Position numbers and translations under genes: made by a program
Part shown: piece by piece, positions 103 through 19,845 of the stretch
How the letters are laid out: each line of letters begins with the position of its first letter
Position numbering within the stretch: position 1 is the first letter of the stretch
The notes under the pieces: generated by a model
The model's input: the letters and a program-made list of their open reading frames with translations, nothing else
Told to the model about the DNA's origin: nothing
Databases searched by the model: none
Origin: an uncultured Phycisphaerales bacterium
Lineage (GTDB): Bacteria; Planctomycetota; Phycisphaerae; WQYP01
NCBI GenBank assembly: GCA_903845195.1
Contig: CAIMWO010000090.1
Span: forward strand, 62,001 to 126,000
Direction of reading: 5' to 3'
Length of the DNA stretch: 64,000 bases

Positions 103-1428
103 GTGAGCGACACGTTGACGAGCATGGGGGGAACAATCGAGCAGGGAATTCCGGTGCAGGAATCGGTGGCGGTGCCGCTGGTGAAACGGGTGACGTGTCC
201 GCATTGCTGGCACGTGTTCCGTCCGGAGCAGATTCTGTGGGTGGCGCAGCACGAGGACCTGATGGGGGACTCGGTGCTGAAGGAGGAGCCGCAGCGGTTT
301 TTGCCGTCGCGGTTCACGATTGAAGGCCAGGCGATCGATTCGCGTGGAATGCCGTGCCATTCGCTGGCGTGTCCGGCGTGTCATTTGGTGTTGCCGCGGG
401 TGCTGCTGGAGAACGAAATCACGTTCATCAGTATCATCGGGAGCGCGGGGAGCGGGAAGAGTAATTTTCTGGCGGCGATGACGTGGGAACTGCGGCAGAA
501 GCTGGCGCGGGAATTTGCGATCATCTTTGCGGACGGCGACAAGGAAGCGAACTGGATTCTGAACCGGTATGAAGAGACGCTGTTCCTGCCGGACGATCCG
601 GACAAGCCGGTGGTGCTGGACAAGACACGGACGCAGGGGGATTTGTATCGGAGCGTGACGATTTCGGGGCAGGAGACGCAGTTGCCCAAGCCGTTCTTGT
701 TTTCGTTCCATCCGGGGGCGGAGCATCCGCGGGCGGCGCTGCGGGCCCGGCTGGGGCGGATCGTGTGTCTGTATGACAATGCGGGGGAGCATTACAACGT
801 CGGGCAGGATACGGCGCTATCGCCGGTGACGCGGCATCTGTCGCGCAGCCGGGTGCTGATGTTCCTGTTTGACCCGACGCAGGACCCGCGATTCCGTGCG
901 AAGTGCAAGGCGTTTTCCACTGATCCGCAGATTGTCGAGCCGATGCAGACGGTGCGCCAGGAAACGATTCTGAGCGAAGCGGCGATCCGGTTCCGCAAGC
1001 ATGCGAGTTTGAGCGCGTATCAGAAATGCGACCGGCCGCTGCTGGTGCTGGTGGCCAAGAGCGATATCTGGGGGCCGCTGCTGGCGGACGAGGATCTGGT
1101 GAGCGAGCCGATCGTGCGGGACGAGCCGGGCAAGGCGCATTTGAGCGTGCTGGATCTGGACCGGATCGAACGGGTGAGTATGAAGGTGCGGCAGTTGCTG
1201 CTGGAGCTCACGCCGGAGGTGGTGACGATCGCGGAGGACTTCTCCGACGAAGTTTTCTACATGCCGGTGAGCGCGCTGGGTCATTCGCCGGAGAAATATC
1301 CGGAGAAGAACGGCCTGCTGATCAAGCCGCGGGACGTGCATCCGCGGTGGGTGACGATCCCGCTGTTGTATTCGTATGCGCGCTGGGCGACGGGTCTGAT
1401 TGCGGGCATCCGCGGACTGAAAAAATAG
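103..1428 (+). CDS. Zinc-ribbon P-loop GTPase-like protein (double-GTPase type)
   Basis: A GTP-binding switch-type protein is the likely role. The N-terminus holds a zinc-ribbon-like pair, C32-x2-C35 and C90-x2-C93. A Walker A loop GSAGSGKSN lies at about residues 113-121, a G3-like DNAGE near residue 225, a G4-like AKSD in the C-terminal half, and a G5-like SALG after it. That order fits a TRAFAC-type GTPase; I recall the double-GTPase (DO-GTPase) families of GTPase-centred systems as the best match, but the family is inferred. I start at GTG 103 because GGAGG at 90-94 sits 8 bases upstream; an in-frame GTG at 70 lacks such a site. It is followed by a GAP1-like gene, the partner expected for this family. 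The stop codon lies inside an A-rich inverted repeat. Confidence 0.72.
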   Translation: MSDTLTSMGGTIEQGIPVQESVAVPLVKRVTCPHCWHVFRPEQILWVAQHEDLMGDSVLKEEPQRFLPSRFTIEGQAIDSRGMPCHSLACPACHLVLPRVLLENEITFISIIGSAGSGKSNFLAAMTWELRQKLAREFAIIFADGDKEANWILNRYEETLFLPDDPDKPVVLDKTRTQGDLYRSVTISGQETQLPKPFLFSFHPGAEHPRAALRARLGRIVCLYDNAGEHYNVGQDTALSPVTRHLSRSRVLMFLFDPTQDPRFRAKCKAFSTDPQIVEPMQTVRQETILSEAAIRFRKHASLSAYQKCDRPLLVLVAKSDIWGPLLADEDLVSEPIVRDEPGKAHLSVLDLDRIERVSMKVRQLLLELTPEVVTIAEDFSDEVFYMPVSALGHSPEKYPEKNGLLIKPRDVHPRWVTIPLLYSYARWATGLIAGIRGLKK

Positions 1429-1511
1429 AAAATAGAAAATGAAAAATAGAAAAACTTGATGCGTAGATCAATTGGGAAGAGTACAACGGCTTTTTCTATT
1501 TTCTATTTTTT
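1420..1511. repeat. AAAATAG heptamer repeats forming a 20-bp inverted repeat
   Basis: The gap after the GTPase-like gene carries A-rich heptamers (AAAATAG type) at 1420-1456 and their inverted copy at 1491-1511. Arms 1420-1439 and 1492-1511 are perfectly complementary over 20 bases. The right arm ends in a T-rich run, so the RNA could work as a terminator or processing hairpin between the first two genes. The left arm overlaps the stop codon of the upstream gene. Confidence 0.8.
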
Positions 1512-1531
1512 GCGGGCACGATTGAGCCGAC

Positions 1532-4039
1532 ATGAGTCATGAAATTTACTACACCTCCGCACCTGAAGGAATCAAGCGCGGCAGCAGCGGGTTCTGCACC
1601 GTAGGCGCGACGGAGAATATTCCGCGGGCGTTGTGGGAGCGGCTGGAGGCGTTGAGCGCGTATCGGCATCATGAAGGCGCCGGGGCGGGGGATTCGGGAG
1701 CCAATCCGGTGAGCTGGGCGCATTGGCTGCTGAACGTGGCGGGGATTCGTTATCACGTTTTGAGTCGGGTCAGTGATTCGGGCGTGGATCACACGCAGCG
1801 GACGAATGCTTTTGCCCATCACTTAGTTGTGGATGCAGCGGAGATGGCGGCGGGCGGGCCGGCGTGGATGCTGCAGCATGGCGTGATGGTGGAGAGTTGG
1901 AACGGGCAGGTGGGGACGATCGCGCGGCGAGCGAGTTTGCCGCGGGGAGACGCAGCGCCGGGCATTTGCCGAGGATGGGCGCAGGCGGCGGGTGATGCGG
2001 GATGGGGCGGGGCGCTGGCGGAAAGCGTTCTGAAGGGCAACGGGCGGCCGGTGTGCATATTGTTCAGCCCGGAGCAGGATGTGCTGGGGTTGGTGGCCGA
2101 GGCGCTGCGGCTACTGCCGGCGCGGCAGCGATGGAATGTGACGTTTAACACGTATTTTACGAGCATGCCGACGAGCGCAACGTGTTTGTGGCGCTGCTGT
2201 CTGAAGGGGACGCCGGCGGCGGATATCGGCTTGCGTTATGCGGCTAATGGATTGGTGCTGGATTTGACGGATCGGGGGAGTTTGGGTGCGCCGGCGGAGA
2301 GCGATTATGTGAAGCTGGCGCGGACGGGGACGATGTCGGCGGCGCTGCGGGCGGCACATTCCAGCACCGGCGGCGCTGCGGCAGCAAAGACGACTGCGCC
2401 GGTGTCGCGGGGGCCGGCGGCGGTGACGGCGGCGCGGAGTGCGCCCGTCGAGCAGCCGGTGGAAAGCGGCGGGGAGATTCCGTTTGCAGATGAGGCGGAG
2501 GCGGAACCGGCGGGGCGAGCGGACGATCGTGAATCGCCAGTGGCAGCTCCGCCGATCGCGCAACCGGCGCTGGTGGTGCCGGAGGGGGATATTCCGGTGG
2601 CGCGGCCGGCGCGCAAGAGCAGTTTTCTTCCCGCCAAGACCTTGGCCGAGACGATGCGAGAAGCCGAGGCGACACTGAGCCGCAACATGGACATCGAAGT
2701 GGGTGCGGCGAAGAAGCGGCGGCGGCAGGCGATGCTGCTTTACCTGGGTGCGATTCTGGCGCTTGCCATTGGTATGACGCTGATGTGGATCGTGTTTCAT
2801 GGGATGGGGCCGAGAGATCAGTCGTCGAATCCCTTGCCGCCGCAGCGAAATCCGGCGAATGTTGGGCCAAAGATTGCGGTGACGCCGGAGGTTATTCCGA
2901 CGCCGCCGACGAACACTGTTGCGACAAATACACCGCCGACGAATACGAACATCACCCCCCCACCGCCGATGGATAATGGGACGGGAAACGTGACCCAGGC
3001 ACCGCTAAATCCGGCACCGCACGTGATTCCGGTGGCGGCGCCCAAGACGATCGTGCTGCGGACGGCGCTGTTGCGGATGAAGCCGGGTAGCGGCATCGGT
3101 GACAAGTCGCAGACGATTCCTGTACCGGCGGGGGAATTCGCGGACCTCAAGGGAATCACCGGGTTGTCGATGACTCTCCAAGGAGCGCAAACGGAAATCC
3201 GGTATAAACTGGAAAGCCTTTCGGGCACGCTTGCGGCGGCGCAGGAGACGCGTCAGGGAAATCCCGGGGTGGCGTTGAAATGGACGGATGCGAGCGATTT
3301 GACGGGGCCGATTGAAGTGGCGTATGTGTCGCTAAATCGCGGCAAGGCGTCGGTGGAGCTGAGTTGGAAGATGGCGGTGGCGCTCAAGCGGCCGGAATTG
3401 CCGACAGTGGTTTACTGGGCGGTGCAGAATTCCTTCCTGACGGCGGAGATGGGCAGCAAGATGGGGCAGCGGATCGAATTCAAGCCGCTAGAGCTTAAGG
3501 CGATCAATCTGAAGGAAGCGACGTCGGCCCTGGGATTGCCGGCGGCCGTGCCCAATGAGGCCATCGTTACGCCTCTGGGTGCCTTGCCGACGGGTTGGAC
3601 GGTGACGTGGTATACGGACTGGGAAGTGAAGGACGCGGCATTGCGCACGGCGGAGAATGCCTCGCAGGTGCTGAAGTTCCGGAAAGGGACGAGCGCGCCG
3701 GGCGTGGAGGCGTGGTTTTTGGTGACCTTCCGTCCGGGCTGGGCGACGGTCGAGAGCACGATGGGCAAGCGTCAGGGCGCCGACGAGACGGAACTGGCCC
3801 GTGCAGAGAGCGATTTGCGGTCGGTCAACAGCGAAATTGCGCGGATCGACAGGGAATCCGGCGGGAAAGTGGCGGCACCGGATTCGCTGCAGCAGCAGGC
3901 AGCGGCGGGCAAGACGGCGATTGCAGGATACAAGGAAGCGATTGCCGGATATAACGATTTGACGAATGTAGAAGTTGCCTTGGATTTGCCTGATGGCATG
4001 CGGATAGCGATCATTCACTTCCGCGCGGATGGCAAGTAA
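1532..4039 (+). CDS. GAP1-like GTPase-associated membrane protein
   Basis: Probable partner of the upstream GTPase. The first 260 or so residues match what I recall of the GAP1 N-terminal domain: YYTSAPEGIKRGSSGFCTVG at the start, then SRVSDSGVDHTQRTN, then WNVTFNTYFTSMP. A low-complexity linker follows, then one transmembrane helix at about residues 398-421, a Pro/Thr/Asn-rich spacer (about 445-490), a beta-rich C-terminal domain, and a short coiled coil near residues 750-800. This topology puts the GAP1-like part in the cytoplasm and the C-terminal part outside it, or the reverse. No clear Shine-Dalgarno precedes ATG 1532. The domain call is from memory of the family; the exact role is not known to me. 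Confidence 0.68.
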   Translation: MSHEIYYTSAPEGIKRGSSGFCTVGATENIPRALWERLEALSAYRHHEGAGAGDSGANPVSWAHWLLNVAGIRYHVLSRVSDSGVDHTQRTNAFAHHLVVDAAEMAAGGPAWMLQHGVMVESWNGQVGTIARRASLPRGDAAPGICRGWAQAAGDAGWGGALAESVLKGNGRPVCILFSPEQDVLGLVAEALRLLPARQRWNVTFNTYFTSMPTSATCLWRCCLKGTPAADIGLRYAANGLVLDLTDRGSLGAPAESDYVKLARTGTMSAALRAAHSSTGGAAAAKTTAPVSRGPAAVTAARSAPVEQPVESGGEIPFADEAEAEPAGRADDRESPVAAPPIAQPALVVPEGDIPVARPARKSSFLPAKTLAETMREAEATLSRNMDIEVGAAKKRRRQAMLLYLGAILALAIGMTLMWIVFHGMGPRDQSSNPLPPQRNPANVGPKIAVTPEVIPTPPTNTVATNTPPTNTNITPPPPMDNGTGNVTQAPLNPAPHVIPVAAPKTIVLRTALLRMKPGSGIGDKSQTIPVPAGEFADLKGITGLSMTLQGAQTEIRYKLESLSGTLAAAQETRQGNPGVALKWTDASDLTGPIEVAYVSLNRGKASVELSWKMAVALKRPELPTVVYWAVQNSFLTAEMGSKMGQRIEFKPLELKAINLKEATSALGLPAAVPNEAIVTPLGALPTGWTVTWYTDWEVKDAALRTAENASQVLKFRKGTSAPGVEAWFLVTFRPGWATVESTMGKRQGADETELARAESDLRSVNSEIARIDRESGGKVAAPDSLQQQAAAGKTAIAGYKEAIAGYNDLTNVEVALDLPDGMRIAIIHFRADGK

Positions 4040-4054
4040 GAGGAAGCAGGTAGA

Positions 4055-4077
4055 ATAGACTCGTCGCAAGAGTCTAT
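4055..4077 (+). promoter_or_regulatory. Intercistronic hairpin
   Basis: ATAGACTC at 4055-4062 pairs perfectly with GAGTCTAT at 4070-4077 around a 7-base loop. It lies in the 68-base gap between the GAP1-like gene and the next gene. There is no T-run after it, so it is more likely an RNA stability or processing element than a terminator. Confidence 0.5.
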
Positions 4078-4107
4078 GGACGTGACGGCGTAAGCAGGAA
4101 AAAAATC

Positions 4108-7100
4108 ATGGCGGATTATCAACGTGTGGTGGAATTTCTCAGGGACGTGCGCCAGGCACCGCTGCAGGGCGTAACGGAGGAGATATCGCAGGCGGCGAAG
4201 GACTTTGCCACATTCTGCGTGGAGGCGAACGAACGTCTGCGCAAATGTTCGGGATTCCTGCAGCAGGGATTGCGGACCGAAGCGATTCACCTGGCGGACG
4301 AGAATCCGAACCTGTTGGACCTGGTGGCGGCGCTGGACCTGCCGGACCCGGAAGTATGGGCGGAATTCTGCGCCAACAACGGATTGCCGGTGCCTCCGCC
4401 ACTGCAACTGGACCGGGCGGAGCAGTTGAATGAAGCGTATGCGCAGGACCAGCCGATGGAGCATCTGCTGTCGCGGCATCGGCTGCTGGCGCTGGCGCGC
4501 GCGCCGATGCGCGAGCGGCTGGGGGTGATGCGGCAACTGATGGCGATCGATCCGGGAAATGCGGCGTGGGAAAAGGACATCCGGGGGTACGAGGCGGCGC
4601 GTATCCGCGAACTGCCGACGTCCTTTTACAACGCCATGAAGGATCACGATGATGCGGCGATTGTGGACCTGGCGCACGAGATGACGGAGAGCGCCTGGAT
4701 TGAGCCGCTGCCGCTAGACCTGGTGACGGCGGTGACCGACGCGAACGCGCGGATTCAGCGGCGCACGTTGGAAGACGAGTTGAAGAAGCTGGTACAGCCC
4801 TTGCGGGACGCTTTTGCGGCACAGACGCTAAAGGACTGCCAGTCGATCGTGGCACGGTGGAAGAAGCTGATGACTTCTGCCGGCGTGACGAACGTTTCGC
4901 ATGAATTGAGCGATGAAATCAAGCCGGTGATCGCGTGGATTGCCGAGGAAGAGAAGAAGGAAGACCGGCTGCGCAAGTACCGCGGCAGTTGCAAGGCGTT
5001 CGGCGACCTGCTGAACCGGGACGCAACGGACCGGGAGCTGGAGGCGGGTTACGCGCGGCTGAAGGAATTCGGCGAACCGGTACCGGAAGATTTCACGACG
5101 CGGTACGCGGACAAGCGCAAATCGCGGCAGCATGCCACGGAGCGCAAGCATAAGCTGCGTCTGGCGGCGATCGCAGGGATCGTGATTGTGATTGTCGTGG
5201 TGGTGCTGGGCGTGGGCATCACGATCATGCATGCATCGGCGGCCGAGCGATGGGCCAACGAGTTAAACTCTGCCGTAGCGGCCAAGGATATTGAAAAGAT
5301 CCGGCACTTGCTGGAGGAGTTGTCGAAAGCTTCAGCGCAGATCACGGGCGATCAGCGGGTCAGCACGGCGCGGGCCGAGGCGATGGCCAAGGAAGCGGAA
5401 TACGCCCGAGACCAGGATTCGCTCAAGGACACACTGGAAAAATATGATGGGCTGGAAAAGAGCGCCGGGCCGGTGGCGGCCAATACCGGTGCTTCGATGG
5501 ATGATTTGGTGAACGCGGCGGCATCGTTGAAGGAAGGCCTGGCTGCGGGGCGAGCCAAGGGCGACCTGTCATGGGTCGACACGGAGAAGAAACTTGGGGC
5601 GCAGGAAGGGCGGCTGGTCGATCTGCTGGCGCGACTGCAGACGCGCGCCTCATCGGGCGTGAAGGCCCGGGTGGATGCGCTGGCGGCGGAGGTCGACGGG
5701 TTGGCGTCGCTTTCGTCGGCGGATGCATCGGCAAAGTTATTGACGATCGGGCGTTCGCTGCGGGCGATGAAGGATCTGACGGGGATCGATGTCGACGCGA
5801 CGACGGCGATCGCCAATCTGCTGCAGCGCGCGGACAAGATGCGTGAAACGCTCGAAGCCACACGGGACATCACGACGGAACTGCAGAGCGTGCGTGCCGC
5901 GGCCATCAGCTCCGACGATCTCAAGCGGGCGCTGGAACATTTTGTGCAGCGGTTCCCCAATGCCCCGCAGACGCAGGAGTTCTCCACGGCCATCCAACGG
6001 ATGAACCTGGCCAAGGCGGTGGAGTCCTGGCGTGACATGGCCGCCGGTTTCGGCGGGCGATTCGGGCCCACCAGCCAGGCGGGTGCGCAGAAGCGCTTTG
6101 ACGCGCTGGCAGCGCATTTGACGGCATATCCGGATTCGCCGTTTATCAGCATCGCCACCGAGTATGAGGACTACCTGCGGCGGGCGATAGATGCGCTGGC
6201 CGAGAAGGGCACGTGGCAGACGGCCTTAACGGATCTGCTCAGCACGCCGATGGTTTCCGAGTTGTGCTACATGGAGAGCTCCGACGGCAAGCGCTATTAC
6301 GTGCTGGGCGACATCAAGATGCAGATCAAGCGGATCAACAACCAGGTGACGGTGACGTTCGAGGCGCTCAATCCCAAGGACCTGTCGAAGCGGATGATCG
6401 TCAACATCGATCCGCCGGTGAGGGTGCTGACGGACAAGCCGGTGCGGATGCCGCACGCGAAAGTTGCCGCGGACATGGCCGATGCGATCAAGTTGATCGA
6501 CGAATCCAACTGGGACACGTGGGGCATCGACATGAGCGACAAGCTGGTGAAGAACACGGAGATGGACATCGTGGTCAAGGCGATTTTGCTGCAGCCAGTG
6601 CTCAAGGCCAACGAGCAGGTGGCCGGTTGGGCGCTGGGCGATACGTATTCCAAGGCGATCACCGAACTGGCCCGGCAGAAGGCCGAGGAAATCCAGTGGA
6701 TCGATGCGGACAAGGTCACGGATGGCATGAAGAAAGCGTTTAAGTCGACGATGGACAATCTGCCGCCGGCGGTGACCGTCAAGCAACTGCTGCAGTCGCG
6801 CAAAGTGGCGTTGTTCAAAGCGGTGAAGATCGACATCGGCGGCACGGGCGTGCTGCTGCGGGACGATCACGGGAACTGGGATGTGAGCGCCCGGACGGGG
6901 ATCAGCGACGGCAATATCCTGTGGATCGTCAAGCCCGGGACGGTGCCGTTTACGCCTGCTGCAACCGTGCCACCGGCAGTGAATCTCACGGACGCCACTT
7001 CCGCAGCGGCGGCGGCGCCGGCAGCGGCAGCCATGCCCGGAATCATGGTGCAGATCGGCGTGGTGAAGGACGGCAGAATCGTGGTCGACGAATCGGCCAT

Positions 7101-7146
7101 CCGCGATATTCCGCAGGGGTCGATGGTTTTCCTGATGAGGCCGTAG
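4108..7146 (+). CDS. Large single-pass membrane protein, third gene of GTPase module
   Basis: I do not recognise this 1012-residue protein. The N-terminal 345 residues are charged and helical. A strong transmembrane segment (AIAGIVIVIVVVVLGVGITI) lies at about residues 353-372. The long C-terminal part has helical, coiled-coil-like stretches (about 375-640) and a mixed region to the end with an Ala-rich linker near residues 955-980. The overall plan (soluble N-part, one helix, long C-part) mirrors the GAP1-like protein before it, and the order GTPase, GAP1-like, membrane protein suggests all three act as one membrane-associated complex. An AGGA element 9 bases upstream supports ATG 4108. Confidence 0.6.
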   Translation: MADYQRVVEFLRDVRQAPLQGVTEEISQAAKDFATFCVEANERLRKCSGFLQQGLRTEAIHLADENPNLLDLVAALDLPDPEVWAEFCANNGLPVPPPLQLDRAEQLNEAYAQDQPMEHLLSRHRLLALARAPMRERLGVMRQLMAIDPGNAAWEKDIRGYEAARIRELPTSFYNAMKDHDDAAIVDLAHEMTESAWIEPLPLDLVTAVTDANARIQRRTLEDELKKLVQPLRDAFAAQTLKDCQSIVARWKKLMTSAGVTNVSHELSDEIKPVIAWIAEEEKKEDRLRKYRGSCKAFGDLLNRDATDRELEAGYARLKEFGEPVPEDFTTRYADKRKSRQHATERKHKLRLAAIAGIVIVIVVVVLGVGITIMHASAAERWANELNSAVAAKDIEKIRHLLEELSKASAQITGDQRVSTARAEAMAKEAEYARDQDSLKDTLEKYDGLEKSAGPVAANTGASMDDLVNAAASLKEGLAAGRAKGDLSWVDTEKKLGAQEGRLVDLLARLQTRASSGVKARVDALAAEVDGLASLSSADASAKLLTIGRSLRAMKDLTGIDVDATTAIANLLQRADKMRETLEATRDITTELQSVRAAAISSDDLKRALEHFVQRFPNAPQTQEFSTAIQRMNLAKAVESWRDMAAGFGGRFGPTSQAGAQKRFDALAAHLTAYPDSPFISIATEYEDYLRRAIDALAEKGTWQTALTDLLSTPMVSELCYMESSDGKRYYVLGDIKMQIKRINNQVTVTFEALNPKDLSKRMIVNIDPPVRVLTDKPVRMPHAKVAADMADAIKLIDESNWDTWGIDMSDKLVKNTEMDIVVKAILLQPVLKANEQVAGWALGDTYSKAITELARQKAEEIQWIDADKVTDGMKKAFKSTMDNLPPAVTVKQLLQSRKVALFKAVKIDIGGTGVLLRDDHGNWDVSARTGISDGNILWIVKPGTVPFTPAATVPPAVNLTDATSAAAAAPAAAAMPGIMVQIGVVKDGRIVVDESAIRDIPQGSMVFLMRP

Positions 7147-7165
7147 AGGCGGATTCATAACTCCA

Positions 7166-7191
7166 AAAGACCGCCGTAAACAGCGGGCTTT
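7166..7191 (+). promoter_or_regulatory. Hairpin between GTPase module and tad genes
   Basis: AAAG-a-CCGC (7166-7174) pairs with GCGG-g-CTTT (7183-7191) around an 8-base loop, with one internal mismatch. It ends in a short T-run and could be a weak terminator separating the first three genes from tadA. I see no clear sigma-70 promoter between it and tadA. Confidence 0.35.
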
Positions 7192-7251
7192 CACTACGTA
7201 ACCGGGGTTATGAAACAACTTGTAATCTGTAGAACAGGTACCGAGGTGCCC

Positions 7252-8430
7252 ATGAGCCGCATACCGCATCCAACGACGCCGCGTCCGGCAGCGAAATTCA
7301 GCGTAACCGAAGCGCCGGAGAGCGGGATACGCCTGGGGACGGGCACGCACGTGGCGTTCACGGCCAGCCTGGAATTTTTCCTGGCGCCGATCATGCCGTT
7401 CATGCTGGATGCGGAAGTCAACGAAATCATGGTGACGGCGTTCGATCGAATTTACATTGAAAAAGCCGGGCTGCTGCAACTGACAACGGCGCGCTTCGGC
7501 TCCGAGATGGACGTGCAGGCGGCGGCCAACAACATGGCGCAGTTCGTCGGTCAGCCGCTGACGATGGAGCGGCCGCTGCTGGACGGGCGGCTTCCCGACG
7601 GGTCGCGCGTGTGCATCGTGCTGGGGAATATTGCCTCGACGGGCACGCAGATCAACATTCGCCGGTTCGCCCGCAACACCGCAACGCCTGGGTTCCTGCT
7701 GGAGAAGCGGGCGCTGACGCCGATGGTGATGGAATTTCTGCTGCTGTCGGTGAAGGCGCATCGGAACATTCTGGTTTCGGGCGGGGCCGGTTCGGGCAAG
7801 ACGACGATGGTGAACGTGCTGACGAACGGTTTCGGCGAGGACGAACGCATCGTGGTCATCGAAGACACGCGCGAACTGCAGGTGCAGCGTCCGCATGTGG
7901 TGCAGATGGAAGCCCGGCCTGCCGACGCTTACGGCCGGGGGCAGATTACGGTGCGCGACCTGTTCATCACGGCGCTGCGGATGCGGCCGGACCGGATCGT
8001 GGTGGGCGAGGTAAGGCGCGGGGAGGCGCTGGACATGATTCAGGCGATGACGTCGGGGCATCACGGCAGCCTGACGACATTGCATGCGTCGAGTGCGGCG
8101 GACACGTGCTACCGGCTGGAGACGATGGCGCTGATGGCGGATGTGGGCATCCCGCTGTTTGCGCTCCGGCGCCAGGTGGCCAGCGCGATCGACTTGATCG
8201 TGCAGACGGCGCGGCTGACTTCCGGCCGGCGACTGGTTACCGAAGTGACCGAGGTGTCATTTGATGAACAGACGCAGAACTATTTGACCAAGGATATTTT
8301 TCGCTTAAGCGAAACACCGAATGGGCCGGAACTGGTTTGGACGGGTGAAAAACCTGAAATGTTGGAGCAACTTCGCTTCGAGGGGCTCGTTAATCAAATG
8401 GATCTCACAAAGCCCATGCTGGGGGCGTAG
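7252..8430 (+). CDS. tadA: Tad pilus assembly ATPase TadA/CpaF family
   Basis: Secretion ATPase of the PulE/VirB11 superfamily, expected to power assembly of Flp-type pili at the inner membrane. Visible motifs are Walker A GGAGSGKTT (about residues 177-185 from this start), an Asp box EDTREL, Walker B RPDRIVVGEV with its Glu, and the His box SGHHGSLTTLHA. Length of 392 residues is close to CpaF proteins. An ATG at 7210 would add 14 residues, but GAGG at 7243-7246 just before ATG 7252 favours the shorter form. It opens a run of Flp/Tad genes to 13121. The partner membrane proteins TadB and TadC are not in the window. Confidence 0.9.
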   Translation: MSRIPHPTTPRPAAKFSVTEAPESGIRLGTGTHVAFTASLEFFLAPIMPFMLDAEVNEIMVTAFDRIYIEKAGLLQLTTARFGSEMDVQAAANNMAQFVGQPLTMERPLLDGRLPDGSRVCIVLGNIASTGTQINIRRFARNTATPGFLLEKRALTPMVMEFLLLSVKAHRNILVSGGAGSGKTTMVNVLTNGFGEDERIVVIEDTRELQVQRPHVVQMEARPADAYGRGQITVRDLFITALRMRPDRIVVGEVRRGEALDMIQAMTSGHHGSLTTLHASSAADTCYRLETMALMADVGIPLFALRRQVASAIDLIVQTARLTSGRRLVTEVTEVSFDEQTQNYLTKDIFRLSETPNGPELVWTGEKPEMLEQLRFEGLVNQMDLTKPMLGA

Positions 8431-8498: not shown

Positions 8499-8684
8499 AT
8501 GACCGCCAAAACGCCACGTAAGCAGGTTCGGCGACGCCGGCTGGGCGCGATGAGCGTTGAGTACTTGGCGATTCTGACGCTGGTGGTGTTGCCGCTGGCG
8601 CTGGGAGGGGTTCCGCTGTCGCTGAAAGCGATTCGGGCCTACACCCAACGGCTGGCGTACGTGCAGCAGCTTCCGTTCCCCTGA
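8499..8684 (+). CDS. flp: Flp-family prepilin (first copy)
   Basis: Small prepilin of the type IVb/Flp class, exported and cut by the TadV-type peptidase encoded downstream. The 61-residue protein has a basic leader of about 17 residues, then G-AMSVEY followed by a hydrophobic helix (LAILTLVVLPLALGG). With cleavage after the Gly, Glu falls at position +5 and Tyr at +6, the classic Flp signature. ATG 8499 is chosen over GTG 8478 because GAGGG lies just upstream. It carries almost nothing after the helix, so it may be a minor or structural pilin with a very short tail. Confidence 0.85.
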   Translation: MTAKTPRKQVRRRRLGAMSVEYLAILTLVVLPLALGGVPLSLKAIRAYTQRLAYVQQLPFP

Positions 8685-8789: not shown

Positions 8790-8987
8790 ATGAAAAACCT
8801 CATGACCATGCTCAAAAAGCTGCATCGGGATGAAGCCGGCGCGATGTCGGTTGAGCAGGTGTTGATCCTGGCTTTGGTCGCTGTGCCGATCATCGTCGGG
8901 GTGATGCTCTTCAAGGACAAGATCAAGAGCTGGTTCACGGGTCAGACCGACAAGCTGAAGGACGACACCGGCGGCTGGGTGAACTAA
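8790..8987 (+). CDS. flp: Flp-family prepilin (second copy)
   Basis: Second Flp prepilin, 65 residues. A basic leader ends at G-AMSVEQ, giving Glu at +5 after cleavage, then the hydrophobic helix VLILALVAVPIIVGVMLF and a short hydrophilic tail ending GGWVN. Position +6 is Gln rather than the usual Tyr. GGAGG at 8776-8780 lies 9 bases before ATG 8790, a stronger ribosome site than that of the first copy, so this may be the major pilin. The same AMSVE motif in both copies suggests duplication. Confidence 0.87.
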   Translation: MKNLMTMLKKLHRDEAGAMSVEQVLILALVAVPIIVGVMLFKDKIKSWFTGQTDKLKDDTGGWVN

Positions 8988-9079
8988 GCCCTGCCTTACA
9001 CTGGCACGTGGTGGCGTACACCTGGATTCACATGCCGTAGGCTGGGGATGGAGGGTGCGCCTTGGTGCAAGGGATGGCG

Positions 9080-9106
9080 GCCTGCCCGCAAGCGAATGGG
9101 GCAGGC
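9080..9106 (+). promoter_or_regulatory. Hairpin between second flp and prepilin peptidase
   Basis: GCCTGCCC (9080-9087) pairs perfectly with GGGCAGGC (9099-9106) around an 11-base loop. It lies just before the GAGGAG ribosome site of the peptidase gene. It could lower read-through or stabilise the upstream prepilin mRNA. It would fall inside the peptidase gene if the upstream TTG 9062 or ATG 9074 were used, which argues for the later start. Confidence 0.5.
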
Positions 9107-9124
9107 GAAAGAGGAGAATCCATC

Positions 9125-9916
9125 GTGGAGTCCGTACGCGAACTGCCCGAAGGGATGGCTCCACCGGTTGCGGCGGGCGCGGGGGAAGGTGTGGGCGCGA
9201 AGGGGCAGGATTCCAACATTTCGTGGCCGGCGCTGTGGATTGGCATGATCAGTCTGAGTGCGGTGGTTGCGACGATTTGTTTGCTGGCCCCCCCACCGAA
9301 GGTTTCGACGATACAACCCACGGGGATGTATGTTTTCGGGCTTACGGGGATGATCTGCGTTGTGGCGGCGCTCATGGATGCGGCGACGCAACGGGTTCCC
9401 AATGCGCTGACGTATCCAGCGATACTTTGCGGGCTGTTGCTCAATTGCGTGCCGGTGGCGGCCAAGGTGATGGGGTTTGGTGAGGTTGAACGGTGGCTGG
9501 GGGCGGGGGGGCCGAACCAGTCGCTGATGGGCTTGGTGATGTGCGGGGGGATTGGATTTCTATCACTGCTGGTGGCGGGAATGGGCGGGGGCGATATGAA
9601 GCTGCTGGCGGCGGTGGGTGCGCTGCTGGGATTTGGGCAGGCGGGACTGGCATTAATCGCCGCATTGGTCGTGGCCGTGGTATATTCTCTGGTGAACCTG
9701 GCGCTGCGCGGGCGGCTGAATCCGGCGGTGCGTGCCGGGGCGGTACGGTTGGTGGAGATATTTTTTCTGAAGCAGTGGATCGCCGATCAACCGACACCGG
9801 TGCATGGGCGTGGATTGAGGGAACGAATTCCGCTGGCGGTGCCGCTGGCGATCGGTTTGGTGGCATCCCGTTTTGTGCCGCTGGATTGGCTGACGTTTGG
9901 ATTGATGAGCGCATGA
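9125..9916 (+). CDS. tadV: Prepilin peptidase, TadV/CpaA type
   Basis: Inner-membrane aspartic peptidase that removes the leader of Flp prepilins and TadE-like pseudopilins. The two catalytic aspartates are visible in MDAATQRVPN and GMGGGDMKLL, the A24 peptidase pattern, with about six hydrophobic segments around them. GTG 9125 is chosen because GAGGAG at 9111-9116 is 8 bases upstream; this gives 263 residues, with a hydrophilic N-terminus of about 40 residues before the first helix. The C-terminal part after NLALRGR is longer than in minimal CpaA proteins and ends in another hydrophobic stretch. It overlaps the next gene by ATGA. Confidence 0.87.
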   Translation: MESVRELPEGMAPPVAAGAGEGVGAKGQDSNISWPALWIGMISLSAVVATICLLAPPPKVSTIQPTGMYVFGLTGMICVVAALMDAATQRVPNALTYPAILCGLLLNCVPVAAKVMGFGEVERWLGAGGPNQSLMGLVMCGGIGFLSLLVAGMGGGDMKLLAAVGALLGFGQAGLALIAALVVAVVYSLVNLALRGRLNPAVRAGAVRLVEIFFLKQWIADQPTPVHGRGLRERIPLAVPLAIGLVASRFVPLDWLTFGLMSA

Positions 9917-10524
9917 GGAAGAAGCTGTCGCAGATTTTCAAACGGATGCGTGCGGATGAAGGCGCGATGGCGGTGGCGTTTGTGCTGGTGTTTCCAATCA
10001 TCCTGGGACTGATTGCCATCCTGGTGCAACTGGCGTTGCTGGTGAATGGGCGATTGATGGTCGAGCAGGCGGCGCAGGCGGCAGCACGTTCGGCCGTGAC
10101 CAGTTTGCCGGAGGATTATCCGGATCAGGTGAGCCGTGCGGCGTACATGGCGCTGACGCCGCTATCGCCGAAGGCGGACAGCGCGGATCAGGACGGCCAG
10201 GACATGATGGACGCATTGGGAACGCTGGGCGTGCAGCCGCTGCCGACATTTGCGTTTCGTTATACGTATGCCAAGGCCGCGACGAAAGTGACGTGGACAT
10301 CGCCGCTGGGTGCTTATCCGTCGAACCAAGGCCAGCCGATGGAATTGACGGTCGCGTATAAATTTCCGCTGATCGTGCCGATTGCACGGTTGATCGTGGC
10401 GGACCCGAATATCAGCGAGGTAGCGGGCATCACGGGGCATTTTGTGACGCTGAAGAGCACGGTGAAGGTGATGACCGCACATAGCCGCAAGGCCTCGGCC
10501 GATGGAAGCGGCTGGCCGGGATAG
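9913..10524 (+). CDS. TadE-like pseudopilin lacking the usual Glu
   Basis: A 203-residue membrane-anchored pseudopilin-like protein. A basic N-terminus ends at DEGAMAVAF, followed by the helix VLVFPIILGLIAILVQLALLV and then the AAARSAVTSLP segment typical of TadE/TadG proteins. Compared with the two Flp proteins, the +5 residue after the Gly is Ala instead of Glu. TadE proteins usually keep a Glu here (QALVEFAL-like), so processing or packing may differ. The start overlaps the peptidase stop codon (ATGA), which implies coupled translation. Confidence 0.75.
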   Translation: MRKKLSQIFKRMRADEGAMAVAFVLVFPIILGLIAILVQLALLVNGRLMVEQAAQAAARSAVTSLPEDYPDQVSRAAYMALTPLSPKADSADQDGQDMMDALGTLGVQPLPTFAFRYTYAKAATKVTWTSPLGAYPSNQGQPMELTVAYKFPLIVPIARLIVADPNISEVAGITGHFVTLKSTVKVMTAHSRKASADGSGWPG

Positions 10525-10558
10525 AGCTTTGGCGAACAAGAGAATGCAGGATGAAGCC

Positions 10559-12610
10559 ATGAAGAGCCAACAAAGACGTGCGTCTGATTCGCGGTGCGGC
10601 GGGGGAGAAGTGTGGGCGTTTTTTGCCGGAAGATTGCGTTGTGGGGCGCGGGCGGTTCACCGTGACGAGCGCGGCGCGATTGGATTCCTGGTGTTGTTCA
10701 TCATGTTTGCGTTGCTGGGATTGATGGCGATGGTGTGGAACACAGGCGACCTGGCCACGAAGCGCCAGCAGATTCAGAATGCTGCGGATGCCGATGCGCA
10801 TGCCGCGGAAATTTGGACGGCGCGTACGGCGAATCTCTTGAGCGCCACGAACATGCTGATCTGCGAGAACGGATCGGCCGAGGCGATTTACCGTTCGGTC
10901 AAGCCCACGGCCGACAGCATCGGGAACGAACTGATCAACGAACGGAATCGCGCCAACCGCGCCCTGACGAGGATTGCGAACCAGCGTGCGAGCGCCAATC
11001 TCTTTGGCTATCCGAGCGCGGCATACAAGGGCCTCGTGCTCGATCTCAAGGAACGCTGTCTGCAGGAAGTTCTCCGCAGTCTTCCTTTGCAGCAGTCGAT
11101 TCTTAACGAGTTTATCGCCCGCACCTCGCCGGCGTTGATGACTACGCAGGCGGATGATTTTGCCCAGCGCCGGGACCAGATGTTCCAGTACCAGGTGGAG
11201 ATCCATCGCATTACGCCGGAGGTGGTGAACGAACAGCGGGCGGCGATGGCTGATTTTTACAAGGTGCAGTTGACGCACGCACTGCCGAAAACGCCGGGAA
11301 GTGATTCGGGCGATCCGACTGTGAACGCACCGGTCAAGCGGATCGGCGGGACGGATGCGGTCGATATTGAGCAGCCACTGGGCCAGGATGAAGAACTCAA
11401 TCATCCCGGCGTGACGGTCGAAAAGGTGAATGTCGCGGGGTATGACGTGTTTGGGGGAACTTGGGGCGGGATACTTTGCCCGCCGCTGCGGCGTTATTTT
11501 TACGATCGCAACTGGCGCGACATTGGCCAGGGACGATCGGATTCGCTGTATGAAATACTGAAGCGGATCGATGATGAACGGGATCGCCTGGCGCTGGTGA
11601 TGGATGCGATCTGTGCGGATCCCGGAGGCGTTCCAGCCGCTTTGGCGGGGGCCTATCCGCAGGCGCGGCAGGAAATCGGCGTGATGGGCTTTGATGACCG
11701 CAATTACCCGGGATTTGGTCCGTTGCTTCCCGGTCAGAGTCGCGGAGGGTACACGACCGGTCACATGGCCACCGGAACCTACGTCAACATCGTTTACAGC
11801 TTCCGCGATCAGATTCTGGGCGATCTGGGCCGGCGGCCGATCTTCATGATGGCCACGTACGATCGCTACAATGTGCCGGACTGGGCCAAGTCCGGTGTGT
11901 ATAACAGCGCCAAGAATTACGTTTATAACGATATTTACTCGCGCGAATGGTTCAGGCTGGCGGAGATCAAGTGGCAGGAATTGTGGCGGGCGCGAAATCC
12001 CGTGGGGAATCCGAGTATGGATACCCGCCGGTGGACGGCGCAGGATTTCGCCGATTGGGCGACGGCGCTGGCGTGGGCGCAGCCGATTGCCCAGCAGGGC
12101 TGCACGATGATCGCGGAGCAGGCGGCGCAAGAGTGGATCGACAGAAAATGGCCGTACGAGATGAAGCCGCCGATCACGGAAGTGCCGCCGACGCAGGGAT
12201 TTTCGCAGGAAGAGCGTCATACGTATTTCACGCTTATCACCGGGGCCAAGACCAACGAAACGTATAAGCCGCGGCTGGCGACGCTTTCGGGCATCAAGGG
12301 TGCGCCGATGGTGGCCCTGACGCAGGCGGAGGTTTTCAACTGGATGGAATTCAACGGCGGCTACGGTGCCTCGGATCGTTACGATGTGTGGGCACCGCCG
12401 GAACCATGGCGGCTGTCGACGATCGGAGGTTGGAACTGGAATTCGCGTCTGACCACGTTCGTCAGTCCTGCGGAAAACGATGCCGGCAAGCTGACGGCCG
12501 AAGCGTTGTCCGAGGCGATACAGAATAATCCGCAGTTGCAGCAGATGTTGGAATCCGTTGGCATTACGGGAAATGATGCAGATGCATTATCAAAAGTTAT
12601 CCAGCACTAG
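10559..12610 (+). CDS. TadG-like Flp pilus-associated protein
   Basis: A 683-residue protein with a TadG-type N-terminus: a hydrophilic leader, then RGAIGFLVLFIMFALLGLMAMVW as a signal anchor, then GDLATKRQQIQNAADADAHAAE, the pattern of putative Flp pilus-assembly TadE/G-like proteins. The large extracytoplasmic remainder has no domain I recognise and no obvious MIDAS motif of a von Willebrand A domain. It begins 34 bases after the preceding pseudopilin gene, with AGG 8 bases upstream of ATG 10559; an in-frame ATG at 10502 would overlap that gene. It probably sits at the pilus base or envelope. Confidence 0.72.
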   Translation: MKSQQRRASDSRCGGGEVWAFFAGRLRCGARAVHRDERGAIGFLVLFIMFALLGLMAMVWNTGDLATKRQQIQNAADADAHAAEIWTARTANLLSATNMLICENGSAEAIYRSVKPTADSIGNELINERNRANRALTRIANQRASANLFGYPSAAYKGLVLDLKERCLQEVLRSLPLQQSILNEFIARTSPALMTTQADDFAQRRDQMFQYQVEIHRITPEVVNEQRAAMADFYKVQLTHALPKTPGSDSGDPTVNAPVKRIGGTDAVDIEQPLGQDEELNHPGVTVEKVNVAGYDVFGGTWGGILCPPLRRYFYDRNWRDIGQGRSDSLYEILKRIDDERDRLALVMDAICADPGGVPAALAGAYPQARQEIGVMGFDDRNYPGFGPLLPGQSRGGYTTGHMATGTYVNIVYSFRDQILGDLGRRPIFMMATYDRYNVPDWAKSGVYNSAKNYVYNDIYSREWFRLAEIKWQELWRARNPVGNPSMDTRRWTAQDFADWATALAWAQPIAQQGCTMIAEQAAQEWIDRKWPYEMKPPITEVPPTQGFSQEERHTYFTLITGAKTNETYKPRLATLSGIKGAPMVALTQAEVFNWMEFNGGYGASDRYDVWAPPEPWRLSTIGGWNWNSRLTTFVSPAENDAGKLTAEALSEAIQNNPQLQQMLESVGITGNDADALSKVIQH

Positions 12611-13220: not shown

Positions 13221-14507
13221 ATGAATCCTATTGCCCAGTCGGACCCGGCACTTTGGCAGGCCATTGTGGATGAGCAGCGTCGGCAGGAAACGACGCTGGA
13301 GCTCATCGCCAGCGAAAACCATGTGACGCCTGCGGTGCTTGCCGCCGCGGCCACGCCGTTGACCAACAAATATGCTGAGGGGTATCCCGGCAAGCGTTAC
13401 TACGGCGGTTGCCAGTTTGTGGATGTCGTGGAGAATCTGGCCCGCGATCGCGCCAAGCAGTTGTTCGGCGTCGATCACGTCAACGTGCAGCCGCACTCGG
13501 GGAGCCAGGCCAATCAGGCGGTTTTTCTGGCGGCGCTGATGCCGGGCGACACGATCATGGGTCTGCACCTGGATCACGGCGGGCACCTGACCCACGGCAA
13601 GAGCGTCAACATGTCGGGCAAGTGGTTCAAGGCAGTGCATTACACGTTGAATCCGCAGACCGAGCGCATTGACATGGCCGACGTGCGCAAGGCGGCAGTC
13701 GAACACAAGCCGAAGTTGATCATCACGGGAGCCTCGGCATATCCGCGGGCATGGGAGTGGGAGAAGTTTGCGGAGATCGCCAAGGAAGTCGGGGCGTTGC
13801 TAATGGCGGATATCGCGCATGTCGCGGGCCTGGTGGCCACCGGACTCCACGATTCGCCCGTGCCGTATGCGGACTTTGTGACGACCACGACGCACAAGAC
13901 GCTGCGCGGCCCCCGCGGGGGCATGACCATGTGCAAGGCGGACTGGGCCAAGAAGATCGATTCGGCCATTTTCCCCGGCCTGCAGGGCGGGCCGCTGATG
14001 CACATCATTGCCGCCAAGGCCGCTGCGTTCGGCGAATGCCTCAAGCCGGAATTCAAGGTGTATTCCGCCCAGATCATCAAGAACGCCAAGACGCTTTCGG
14101 AGGAATTCCTGAAGCGCGGCTACCGACTGGTGACCGGAGGCACCGACAATCACCTCATGCTCATCGACCTGCGCGGCAAGGACGCCAACCTCACCGGCGC
14201 GGCGGTCGAAGGTTGGCTCCAGACGGCCGGCATCATCGTCAACAAGAATATGGTTCCTTACGATACGCGTAAGGCGATGGAAACGTCGGGCATCCGCGTG
14301 GGTACGCCGGCGCTGACCACGCGCGGTCTCAAGGAATCGGATATGAAACTCGTCGCCGCGTGGTTCGACCGAGCGGCTTCCAGCGCCGGCGACGCGGCGG
14401 TACTCGATCGCATCCGCCAGGAAGTGGAAGAGTTCACGCGCCAGTTCCCCCTTCCCCACATCAAGGTGGAGACCGAACAGCCCGAGGAAGCCCTGGCCGC
14501 CCATTGA
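13221..14507 (+). CDS. glyA: Serine hydroxymethyltransferase
   Basis: PLP enzyme converting serine and tetrahydrofolate to glycine and 5,10-methylene-THF, the main source of one-carbon units. Family signatures are [48 protein letters not shown] and the PLP-lysine motif [14 protein letters not shown]. Length of 428 residues is normal. ATG 13221 has AGGA 8 bases upstream; an earlier in-frame start at 13182 would add 13 non-homologous residues. It stands alone with a good promoter at 13132-13160 and a strong terminator after the stop. Confidence 0.97.
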
Positions 14508-14545
14508 TCCCCTGCCTGAAAGGGCTACGCAGATACAAACGTCAC

Positions 14546-14585
14546 AATGCCTCTGCAGCGGAATTCGCGGCAGAGGCATTTTTAT
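14546..14585 (+). terminator. Rho-independent terminator of glyA
   Basis: AATGCCTCTGC (14546-14556) pairs perfectly with GCAGAGGCATT (14570-14580), 11 base pairs around a 13-base loop, followed by a T-run. It lies 38 bases after the glyA stop codon, between convergent glyA and the E2 gene. Confidence 0.85.
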
Positions 14586-14611
14586 TGGCTTTTGGGCCTT
14601 TTCTGATCGTC

Positions 14612-14625
14612 ACTGACAACTGACC
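14612..14625. repeat. ACTGAC-type heptamer pair
   Basis: ACTGACA and ACTGACC stand in tandem in the short space between the glyA terminator and the E2 stop codon. Related CACTGAC/GTCAGTG strings recur near 59021-59091. Listed because it belongs to the window-wide family of 7-base repeats. Confidence 0.4.
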
Positions 14626-14632
14626 ACAATAC

Positions 14633-15964
14633 TCAAATCAGCATGGTCAGGGGATTCTCCAGGAGCTTCTTCAATTCCTGAAGGAATCGGGCGCCGGTGG
14701 CGCCGTCCACGACACGGTGATCGGCCGAGAGCGTCAGGTTCATGACCTGCCCGGCAACCACCTGCTTGTCTTTGACGATCGGTTGCCAACTCGTTCCGCC
14801 CACCGCCAGGATCGCGGTTTCCGGCGGGTTCACGATTGCCAGAAAATCTTTGATGCCATACATGCCGAGGTTGCTGATCGTAAATGTTGAGCCGGTCATC
14901 TGATCGGCCTTGAGCTTGCGATTGCGGCCGAGTTCGGCGAGTTGCTTGATTTCGGCAGAGATCTGCCGCACACCCTTCGTGTGCGCCTGGCGGATCACCG
15001 GCACGACCAAGCCGTCTTCTAATGCCACGGCGATGCCGAGTTCGACGGTTCCATGCTGAATGATCGCGGTCTCGGCGAAACTGGAATTGATCGCGGGAAT
15101 GTTCGTCAGCGCGATGGCACAGGCGCGGGCAATGAAGTCCGTCACGGAAAGCTTGTCCGGTGCGATCTGCTCGTTTGCCGACTGACGCAGCGCCAGGAGC
15201 GCGTCCATCACCACGTCGATCGACACGTAAAAATGCGGGATGTTCTGTTTCGACTGGAGCAATCTTCGGGCGATCGTCTGCCGCATGTTCGACAGCGGGA
15301 TGGTCTTCTTTTCGAGTTTCGACGCCAGATGCACGGGCGAGGCCTGGGCCGCGACGGACGGACCGAACGCCATCACCCGGCCCGGATGCACCGGTTCAGG
15401 CTTGGGAATGCGGCTGATGGCCTCGAGCACATCGCGTTTGATGATGCGGCCATCGGGCCCTGTGCCGCGGATTGTGGTCAGGTCGATTCCCTTTTCGTCG
15501 GCGATTTTTTGCGCCAGGGGGCTGACACGCACCTTGCCGTCGGAGGCAAGTACGGTCGGTTCGCTTCCTTCGTGATGATCTTCCACGGGTTCGACCGGCG
15601 CCGCCGCCGCTTTGGGGGCTGGGGCGGGTTCAGCGGGTGCTTCCGCTTTCGGCTCAGGCTTTGGCGCGGCCTGGGGCGCTGCGCCGGATACTTTTACGCT
15701 TGCGGCGACTTGTTTCACATCCTCCCCCGGCTTGGCCAGGACCACGATGAGGGCCCCTACCGGCGTCTTGCCGCCTTCCGGAATGACGATCTTGGCGATG
15801 GTGCCCGCCTCGAACGCCTCCAATTCCTGGGTGGCCTTATCGGTTTCGACTTCGGCGATCATGTCTCCGGGTTTGACCTGCTCGCCTTCCTTCTTCAGCC
15901 ACTTCGCGAGGGTGGCCTCGGTCATCGTATCGGTCAGCTTCGGCATCGTAATTTCAATGGGCAT
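14633..15964 (-). CDS. 2-oxoacid dehydrogenase E2, probable pyruvate dihydrolipoamide acetyltransferase
   Basis: E2 core of a 2-oxoacid dehydrogenase complex, transferring acyl groups from lipoamide to CoA. The lipoyl domain (residues 1-80) carries the lipoylation lysine in ETDKATQELE. An Ala/Pro/Glu linker follows, then the peripheral-subunit-binding domain (VRVSPLAQKIADEKGIDLT, about 145-180), and the catalytic acyltransferase domain with DHRVVDGATGA near the C-terminus. Length of 443 fits a single-lipoyl E2. Pyruvate is the likeliest substrate by similarity to PDH E2s, but branched-chain or 2-oxoglutarate cannot be excluded. The E1 and E3 genes are not adjacent. LipB at 62803 could supply its octanoyl group. 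Confidence 0.9.
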   Translation of the reverse strand: MPIEITMPKLTDTMTEATLAKWLKKEGEQVKPGDMIAEVETDKATQELEAFEAGTIAKIVIPEGGKTPVGALIVVLAKPGEDVKQVAASVKVSGAAPQAAPKPEPKAEAPAEPAPAPKAAAAPVEPVEDHHEGSEPTVLASDGKVRVSPLAQKIADEKGIDLTTIRGTGPDGRIIKRDVLEAISRIPKPEPVHPGRVMAFGPSVAAQASPVHLASKLEKKTIPLSNMRQTIARRLLQSKQNIPHFYVSIDVVMDALLALRQSANEQIAPDKLSVTDFIARACAIALTNIPAINSSFAETAIIQHGTVELGIAVALEDGLVVPVIRQAHTKGVRQISAEIKQLAELGRNRKLKADQMTGSTFTISNLGMYGIKDFLAIVNPPETAILAVGGTSWQPIVKDKQVVAGQVMNLTLSADHRVVDGATGARFLQELKKLLENPLTMLI

Positions 15965-16104
15965 GGATTCTTCCTTGCTTCACCGCTCAGTTTCGTAATT
16001 CAATTCACCACTTCAAACAGGTGCCATAGTTTACGCACAACCCCTCAGCCGCGAAAGCGCTGTAAGTGAGGTGCGTAATTCTTGCCATAACCAGGGTTTG
16101 GGAC

Positions 16105-16563
16105 TCAGAAATCCCCCGCCACGGATCGCAGGTCCGATCCCAGGCCGGATATGCTTATCGCCATTTCCCCCTGGGGCATGATCCCCTTGCGATCGTCCAG
16201 AATATCCTGGACCAGTTTGACAATTTTTCGGGGCGAAAAAGGCTTGTTGAGCACGTAGTCCACGCCCGCTTCAATCAACTGCTCGAACGTCGTTCGGAAA
16301 TCGTACGAGGTCAGCAGCAGCACCGGGACCCGGCGTTCGCCGCCCTTCAACTCCAGTTTCCGGCACATGGCCAGTCCGTCCAAGCCGGGCATCACGTAAT
16401 CGGTAATCAGAAATTCAATTGCGGGATTGGCCCGATACATCTCAAACCCCTCCCGGCCGTCTGCCGCGGTTATGACTCGGAACCCATGCCCTTGAAGCGC
16501 GAAGGACAGAACCCGCCGAATGTGTGGTTCATCGTCGACCACCAAGATCATCTCGCTGCCCAT
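16105..16563 (-). CDS. Single-domain response regulator receiver
   Basis: A CheY-like receiver of 152 residues without an output domain. Key residues are the acidic pair DDE in ILVVDDEPHIR, the phospho-acceptor Asp in LITDYVMPGLDG, the switch Thr/Ser in LLLTSYD, and the Lys in VLNKPFSPRK. The C-terminal 20 residues after the fold (GEMAISISGLGS) are not a known effector. No histidine kinase gene is adjacent, so it is an orphan here. It probably relays phosphate or controls a partner protein by contact. Confidence 0.9.
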   Translation of the reverse strand: MGSEMILVVDDEPHIRRVLSFALQGHGFRVITAADGREGFEMYRANPAIEFLITDYVMPGLDGLAMCRKLELKGGERRVPVLLLTSYDFRTTFEQLIEAGVDYVLNKPFSPRKIVKLVQDILDDRKGIMPQGEMAISISGLGSDLRSVAGDF

Positions 16564-16747
16564 CTAGTCGCGCCTTGAATGAAATGCATTTCCAAGCGTC
16601 GTACAACAACACGCCTAGGAAGATGGTCGGACCATTTTCCTATTCGCTTTATTACCTATCCAGGCTGTAATCTGAGCGATAAAATCGCTGTGCGAGGATT
16701 TTCCCCACCAGTACATGGACGTACGAGCATCTACAGAGTCCGATTAC
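16564..16747. promoter_or_regulatory. Gap with AGCGAT palindrome
   Basis: This 184-base gap holds no convincing gene. It is less GC-rich than its neighbours and contains a perfect 6-base-arm palindrome AGCGAT-aaa-ATCGCT at 16675-16689, about 110 bases upstream of the receiver gene. The palindrome could be an operator, but six-base arms occur by chance often enough that this is only a candidate. Confidence 0.25.
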
Positions 16748-17773: not shown

Positions 17774-17985
17774 GTCACGACTCCTCATTCAGTCGCGCAC
17801 AGCCGCCATGCAAATATCGCAGCCGATGCCTGACCGGCATCGCTCGATTCACAACGCTTTCTGCGTTTTCAATCCGACCTTACCGGTGTCCCGGCAAAAT
17901 CAGTTCATGGCCGCCTGCGCGACGCCTCCACATTAGCCCAATCGTGTCGCCGTAGCAATCGGGGCGAATCGGTGCCAAGAATATG

Positions 17986-18711: not shown

Positions 18712-18735
18712 GCCCGCTGCTTTCGAAAGGTCTAA

Positions 18736-19809: not shown

Positions 19810-19845
19810 TCACCGTATGATTCACGCTTTGGAGGTGACGTAACT

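Follow-up and report, generated by a model that had tools for sequence, protein, structure and literature searches.

What does a conserved trio of GTPase, GAP1-type protein and large membrane protein do, and which machinery does it serve? We address this question for three open reading frames that lie head to tail on the plus strand at positions 103-7146 of a 64,000-nucleotide stretch of Phycisphaerales DNA (the window). We find that the trio recurs as a unit across related genomes and that it sits here among the genes of a predicted Tad/Flp pilus.

The conserved trio and its three proteins

The first gene (103..1428, plus strand) encodes a zinc-ribbon GTPase of 441 aa, assigned to the DO-GTPase kind from motifs in 15 relatives and Pfam DO-GTPase2. 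Its start is the GTG at 103, which has a good Shine-Dalgarno sequence (GGAGGA) 7 nt upstream and corresponds to the same start residue in a close relative. The N-terminus carries one CxxC..CxxC zinc ribbon. Across the 15 relatives, the ribbon (CPHCW..CPxCH), the P-loop (GxxGSGKS) and the YDNAGE, K-x-D and SA motifs are invariant or nearly so. DNAGE, with its conserved Glu in the Walker B region, is invariant, and together with the conserved P-loop and K-x-D this places TRAFAC-type motifs in the protein. The Pfam DO-GTPase2 match lies just under its cut-off (E = 1e-4, 22.5 bits, cut-off 27) and covers the P-loop stretch only. The zinc-ribbon GTPase-like protein described in the first-pass annotation is thus borne out by the four-Cys ribbon and the DO-GTPase motifs.

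The second gene (1532..4039, plus strand) encodes GAP1, in which Pfam, AlphaFold and hydropathy delineate a cytoplasmic GAP1-N2 domain (residues 1-128), a GAP1-M domain (148-245), a proline-rich linker, a transmembrane segment (TM) and a divergent periplasmic part. Both Pfam domains score over cut-off (GAP1-N2, 1.5e-24; GAP1-M, 6.4e-14) and are also found in 33 of 33 relatives scanned. Hydropathy, from which all TM segments were taken, places a single TM at about 399-426, in agreement with the earlier description of a GAP1-type protein with one membrane helix; topology was assigned from positive-inside reasoning. The AlphaFold model is confident to about residue 283; beyond it confidence is mostly low, and the exceptions are the TM helix and a stretch close to the C-terminus. 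GAP1-C is absent from the matches listed for 33 GAP1 members, and such a part may sit in residues 246-285.

The best PDB match of the predicted GAP1 structure is Acinetobacter TagF (E = 1.3e-3, probability 0.97, target TM-score only 0.35), followed by four P. aeruginosa TagF chains and soon afterwards by SMCR8 from the ARF1 complex. We rejected homology with TagF, as GAP1 has no Pfam TagF_N match and comparisons with profiles from 20 planctomycete TagF sequences (L190-L209) gave an hhalign probability of 0.1% and hmmsearch E values above 0.7. Because these comparisons are negative, the likeness of fold is treated as a lead only. The TagF family occurs in 44 of 392 Planctomycetota genomes and is absent from the genome that hosts the window.

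The third gene (4108..7146, plus strand) encodes P3, a protein of 1012 aa for which AlphaFold, hydropathy and conservation indicate a helical cytoplasmic domain (1-345), one clear TM (about 347-380) and a large periplasmic part that is helical and beta. A predicted structure, which the first-pass annotation had proposed as a check, has a mean pLDDT of 86, with helices to about residue 357, a low-confidence TM region, a further helical part and lastly a beta C-terminal part. Conservation is highest in the N-terminal helical domain, where E58, R125, W154 and E162 are invariant across the 45 rows of the alignment. No Pfam match is found in 19 members of the family, and against the PDB there is neither a convincing sequence match nor a Foldseek match under 1e-3. 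Membership of a known family was rejected, the long helical Foldseek matches being meaningless (rmsd mostly above 20). The original description of the protein as unrecognised and single-pass stands.

The three genes run in one direction with hairpins in the gaps, just as had been noted, and these hairpins exceed dinucleotide shuffles (z = -3.8 at 1415-1531, -2.6 at 4036-4107 and -2.6 at 7141-7215). Across the region, terminator-like sites show no excess (9 found against 10.0 expected). The GTPase-GAP1 gap contains an A/T-rich palindrome (1420..1511, unstranded; z = -3.8) that is one copy of a dispersed genomic repeat with copies on many contigs. Its arms, like GAAAATAGAAAATGAAAAATAGAAAA and the complement, flank a variable spacer, and about 30 further matches lie on many contigs of the genome. 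The inspected copies are apparently intergenic, and the element thus appears to be a dispersed intergenic repeat. Hairpins acting as operon-breaking terminators are unsupported, given the lack of terminator-like excess and the identity of the first hairpin as a dispersed repeat. The short stretch after P3 (7144-7200) has weaker matches elsewhere in the genome (C63, 82%; C75, 77%).

A search of GTDB genomes yielded at least 563 relatives. We compared the loci of the best 80, those most similar to the query, and locus frequencies given here describe those 80; most genomes are metagenome-assembled with short contigs. In 48 of these loci at least 7 kb of sequence lies downstream of the GTPase: 46 carry both GAP1 and P3 behind it, and the other two, L121 and L136, carry neither. 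Every testable locus with GAP1 (46 of 46) thus has P3 after it, in Planctomycetota as well as in Lentisphaerota (Victivallales). Across the 392 Planctomycetota genomes, P3 is found in 24, the GTPase in 26 and both in 22 (hypergeometric p ~7e-30, uncorrected for ancestry). P3 was counted as present at E < 1e-25, a cut set after viewing the match list, and many weak P3-profile matches at positions ~340-480 in other genomes were treated as TM or coiled-coil noise and left uncounted. Of the four genomes with a GTPase and no P3, three have contigs that break off shortly behind the GTPase gene, and the GTPase of the fourth is a distant one. Within the host's bacterial family, the distributions of GAP1, P3 and the GTPase over genomes largely coincide, except in two fragmented assemblies, G009 and G023.

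The first-pass annotation had let its module depend on a family profile match and on a conserved three-gene neighbourhood, and had suggested counting co-occurrence in related genomes; the GAP1 profiles match, the order is conserved and the counts are those above. Its pairing of GTPase and GAP1 in the double-GTPase manner is confirmed as a GAP1-N2 type pair, with the third protein as part of the set. It had also suggested that P3 may be a new effector or scaffold. Constant adjacency to GAP1 and co-occurrence rule against a stray or variable effector, and a protein so constantly present in the core looks more like a membrane scaffold or transducer. As one element of an explanation that we hold, as a whole, at about even confidence, the GTPase, GAP1 and P3 would constitute the constant core of a Planctomycetota/Lentisphaerota branch of DO-GTPase/GAP1-N2 systems.

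The Tad/Flp pilus cluster around the trio

About 15 closely spaced genes, all read from the same strand, make up the cluster; the trio occupies its middle and has Tad/Flp genes on either side. The first letter of the window is base 62001 of a contig 196,864 bases long, and the upstream half of the Tad cluster precedes it. Upstream genes, all on the trio's strand, are given in the numbering of locus L009, and calls outside the window were made by our own script. They comprise RcpC/CpaB (L009 13079-13837), an FHA-T2SSE protein (FHA-CpaF, 13935-15830), TadB (15956-16804) and TadC (16841-17803), all over Pfam cut-offs, followed by an FHA-membrane protein (17872-18642) and a Ser/Thr kinase with a C-terminal GYF-like domain (18709-19953). 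The GYF-like domain scores under cut-off in Pfam (GYF_2, 4e-4) and reaches 7e-30 with our own GYF model, which includes the kinase sequence itself.

Downstream on the plus strand, P3 is followed by a second CpaF/TadA-type ATPase (CpaF2; 7210..8430; T2SSE 2e-45; TIGR03819 7e-74, below its strict cut-off) that is 43% identical to the upstream FHA-CpaF. Next come a small Flp-pilin-like protein of 61 aa (8499..8684), which has no Pfam match and resembles its 65-aa neighbour (41%, 8e-5), and that neighbour, a Flp pilin-like protein (8790..8987; Flp1_like 9e-5 and Flp_Fap 1e-4, both under cut-off). A type IV prepilin peptidase of the TadV/CpaA type (9062..9916; Peptidase_A24, 2.3e-14), a TadE-like protein with its start set by inspection (9913..10524; TadE 1.5e-5, over cut-off) and a TadG-like protein (10502..12610; Pfam Tad, TadE/G-like, 7e-5, over cut-off) complete the series. 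CpaF, TadB, TadC, CpaB, the prepilin peptidase and TadE/G are thus all present over Pfam cut-offs. The Tad locus has no secretin, and four secretins are encoded elsewhere in the genome. These surroundings were overlooked in the first-pass annotation.

A chimeric assembly as the source of this arrangement was rejected, since each of two other assemblies backs one junction. In Phycisphaerales bacterium Emb289P4bin17 (G008, loci L102/L077), FHA-CpaF, TadB, TadC, FHA, kinase, GTPase and GAP1 lie on one contig, and G009 carries P3, CpaF, Flp and A24 on one contig. The Tad-embedded trio is found in three genomes of three genera, all in one family, and gene order is constant over these genera at identities of ~81% for the GTPase, ~48% for P3 and ~70% for CpaF2. 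Two further members of the host's family (G007 and G015) have a Tad-type CpaF and TadB with no trio, kinase or FHA protein in the truncated stretches available for reading, which argues that the trio is not a basic part of the Tad machinery.

Neighbours of the core in other genomes

In most relatives the core lies away from pilus genes. The common order is GTPase, GAP1, P3 and a GYF protein with TM segments or trypsin, so that the GYF domain, fused to the kinase in the locus studied here, is a separate gene adjoining P3. In 24 of the best 80 loci there is in addition a MotA/TolQ/ExbB protein (Pfam 8e-12 for one) together with two proteins of ~280-300 aa, each with one N-terminal TM. The Asp at the start of this TM is invariant in 59 of 59 sequences. 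An Asp in this position is the mark of MotB/ExbD/TolR-type B subunits, and the three neighbours may together form a stator that has two types of B subunit. In locus L088 (751-3358), and likewise in L091, L108 and L152, the MotA/ExbB-like protein is followed by two different B-subunit-like proteins beside the GTPase-GAP1-P3-GYF core. L152 belongs to Rhodopirellula solitaria CA85, a cultured planctomycete; among the loci compared, the Tad-embedded form came from no cultured strain. Using one query, which may miss distant forms, we find the stator A subunit in three sister genomes from the host's family and in none of the three Tad-embedded genomes.

A second clade fuses GYF_2 to a full-length T2SSE (GspE/PilB-like) ATPase, as in L149 (13797-15689) and L092 (5256-7247). 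Here GAP1 and P3 are about 370-390 aa long and end just after the TM, and the irreducible core therefore looks like the cytoplasmic halves of GAP1 and P3 plus a membrane anchor. A tree of the GTPases resolves the Tad-embedded members and the GYF-T2SSE members as one branch each (100/100), widely separated from one another. Stator and T2SSE/CpaF genes occur at 24 and 7 of the 80 loci, respectively, and never together, a pattern suggestive of mutual exclusion from counts too few for significance. We further note that L104 (13815-15050) and same-family relatives encode, between GAP1 and P3 of non-Tad loci, a protein of 411-478 aa that has no Pfam match and resembles a portion of the C-terminal region of GAP1.

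Function of the trio and comparison with known systems

Starting from the observed gene content, order, conservation, motifs and Tad setting, we favour, at about an even level of belief, a reading in which the trio is a GTP-gated, envelope-spanning regulator of a motor, acting here as a regulatory switch in a predicted Tad pilus operon. The cytoplasmic zinc-ribbon GTPase would cycle between GTP and GDP and dock on GAP1 and P3 at their cytoplasmic halves, and these single-pass proteins would relay a signal that comes from the divergent periplasmic part of each. The upstream kinase, by way of its GYF-like domain, could couple the Tad motor to this switch together with the two FHA proteins, of which one is fused to the main CpaF. 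Extension or retraction of the pilus might then depend on GTP state and threonine phosphorylation.

This reading is supported by the place of the trio between CpaB/FHA-CpaF/TadB/TadC/FHA/kinase and CpaF2/Flp/A24/TadE/TadG, by the recurrence of both junctions in other assemblies and by the conservation of the core (46 of 46 loci, 22 shared genomes). It is further supported by the two GYF fusions, with a kinase here and with a T2SSE ATPase in a remote clade, by the reduction of GAP1 and P3 to cytoplasmic halves and anchor in that clade, and by the contrast in stator A subunits between sister and Tad-embedded genomes. The kinase/FHA setting resembles both Myxococcus Kil and the kinase-Fha-TagF control of T6SS. 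The Kil Tad system has FHA fused to CpaF (PMC8460266), and the same paper cites the activation of type IV pili by the MglA GTPase. The reading is weakened by the restriction of the Tad-embedded form to three genomes of one family, by the distance of the core from pilus genes in most relatives, by the Tad loci without a trio and by the score of the kinase GYF domain under the Pfam cut-off.

Known Tad/Flp loci and Myxococcus Kil (PMC8460266, PMC12075869) share CpaB, CpaF, TadB/C, prepilin peptidase and TadE with this cluster, and Kil also shares the FHA-CpaF fusion and further FHA proteins. The locus here differs in its two CpaF-type ATPases, its GYF-kinase and the GTPase-GAP1-P3 trio, and in having no secretin of its own. 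The threonine phosphorylation pathway of T6SS (PpkA, Fha, TagF; PMC5995506) likewise combines a kinase, FHA proteins and a third protein. That third protein, TagF, gives the best PDB match to the predicted fold of the GAP1 N-terminal part but shows no sequence relation to it, and the pathway serves a different machine whose TagF family the host genome lacks.

More tentatively, we suggest that the Planctomycetota DO-GTPase-GAP1-P3 core is a GTP-gated envelope module for interchangeable motors and is not primarily immune. Depending on the locus, the motor would be that of the Tad pilus (as in the window), a T2SSE ATPase or a proton-driven stator that resembles MotAB/ExbBD and contains two types of B subunit. 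The relatives' loci share with MotAB, ExbBD and ZorAB stators an A subunit with MotA_ExbB and a pair of B-like proteins, each bearing a single N-terminal TM and the invariant Asp. They differ in placing two different B-like proteins side by side and in giving weak ZorA/ZorB matches only, and the stator is not in the window.

The 2020 description of GAP1-N2 systems (PMC7159879), in the text considered here, presents them as envelope-near, predicted conflict systems, whose GTPases usually carry two N-terminal zinc ribbons and whose planctomycete cases have GYF partners. Those systems share with the present locus a zinc-ribbon GTPase with the Walker B Glu, a following TM-anchored GAP1 with GAP1-N2 and GAP1-M, and the planctomycete GYF partner, whereas the constant P3, the fusion of GYF to a kinase and the Tad setting set this locus apart. 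No FNIII-repeat or variable effector component is found among the neighbours scanned. We nevertheless file the locus as a variant of GAP1-N2 systems because the same text lists planctomycete systems with GYF partners instead of that component. In the literature searched after this prediction, we found no experimental test of DO-GTPase/GAP1 function.

From this family-level prediction derives a less likely alternative, namely an anti-phage conflict system, in which envelope sensing of an invader would trip the GTPase and lead to cell death or pilus shutdown. Its place inside the Tad locus would perhaps reflect the fact that phages can use Tad pili as receptors. The patchy distribution of GAP1-N2 (36 of 392 genomes; 9 of 41 relatives), the fast divergence of the periplasmic parts and the weak PADLOC matches of the relatives' stator A subunit to ZorA are consistent with it. 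For the trio itself, PADLOC gives weak P-loop matches to the GTPase, one weak and chance-like match to GAP1 and none to P3. No effector domain is recognised in the locus, the component set is constant and not variable, and the neighbours are structural pilus genes. Of the possible defence role raised in the first-pass annotation, only the 2020 family prediction speaks for it; the PADLOC result and the Tad or motor-type neighbours speak against it.

We consider it unlikely that the trio is an envelope transducer in its own right, driven by force or ion flow, stator-powered in most relatives and merely co-expressed with the Tad genes, with a non-pilus output such as envelope tension or adhesion signalling. 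Most relatives do have the core beside MotA/ExbB-like and two B-like subunits with no pilus genes, but the stator A subunit was not found by our query in the Tad-embedded genomes, and the kinase-GYF fusion and the place between two CpaF genes argue for a tie to the Tad machinery. A chance neighbourhood, in which the module was inserted once into a Tad operon with no functional tie, would fit the single family and single tree branch of the Tad clade but is highly improbable in view of the order kept across three diverged genera, the GYF-kinase fusion and the independent link with a secretion-type ATPase seen in a different clade.

The regulation of a Tad motor thus remains our preferred reading, and the presence of the trio in a pilus cluster with a kinase and FHA proteins gives DO-GTPase/GAP1 systems, whose function has hitherto only been predicted, a concrete and testable phenotype. 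The constant third component, P3, is not named in the text of PMC7159879 considered here. That text likewise makes no mention of pili, of MotA/ExbB or of a possible two-B-subunit stator beside the core. If the motor reading is true, it would add GTPase control to Tad pili and would link a predicted immune system to envelope motors.
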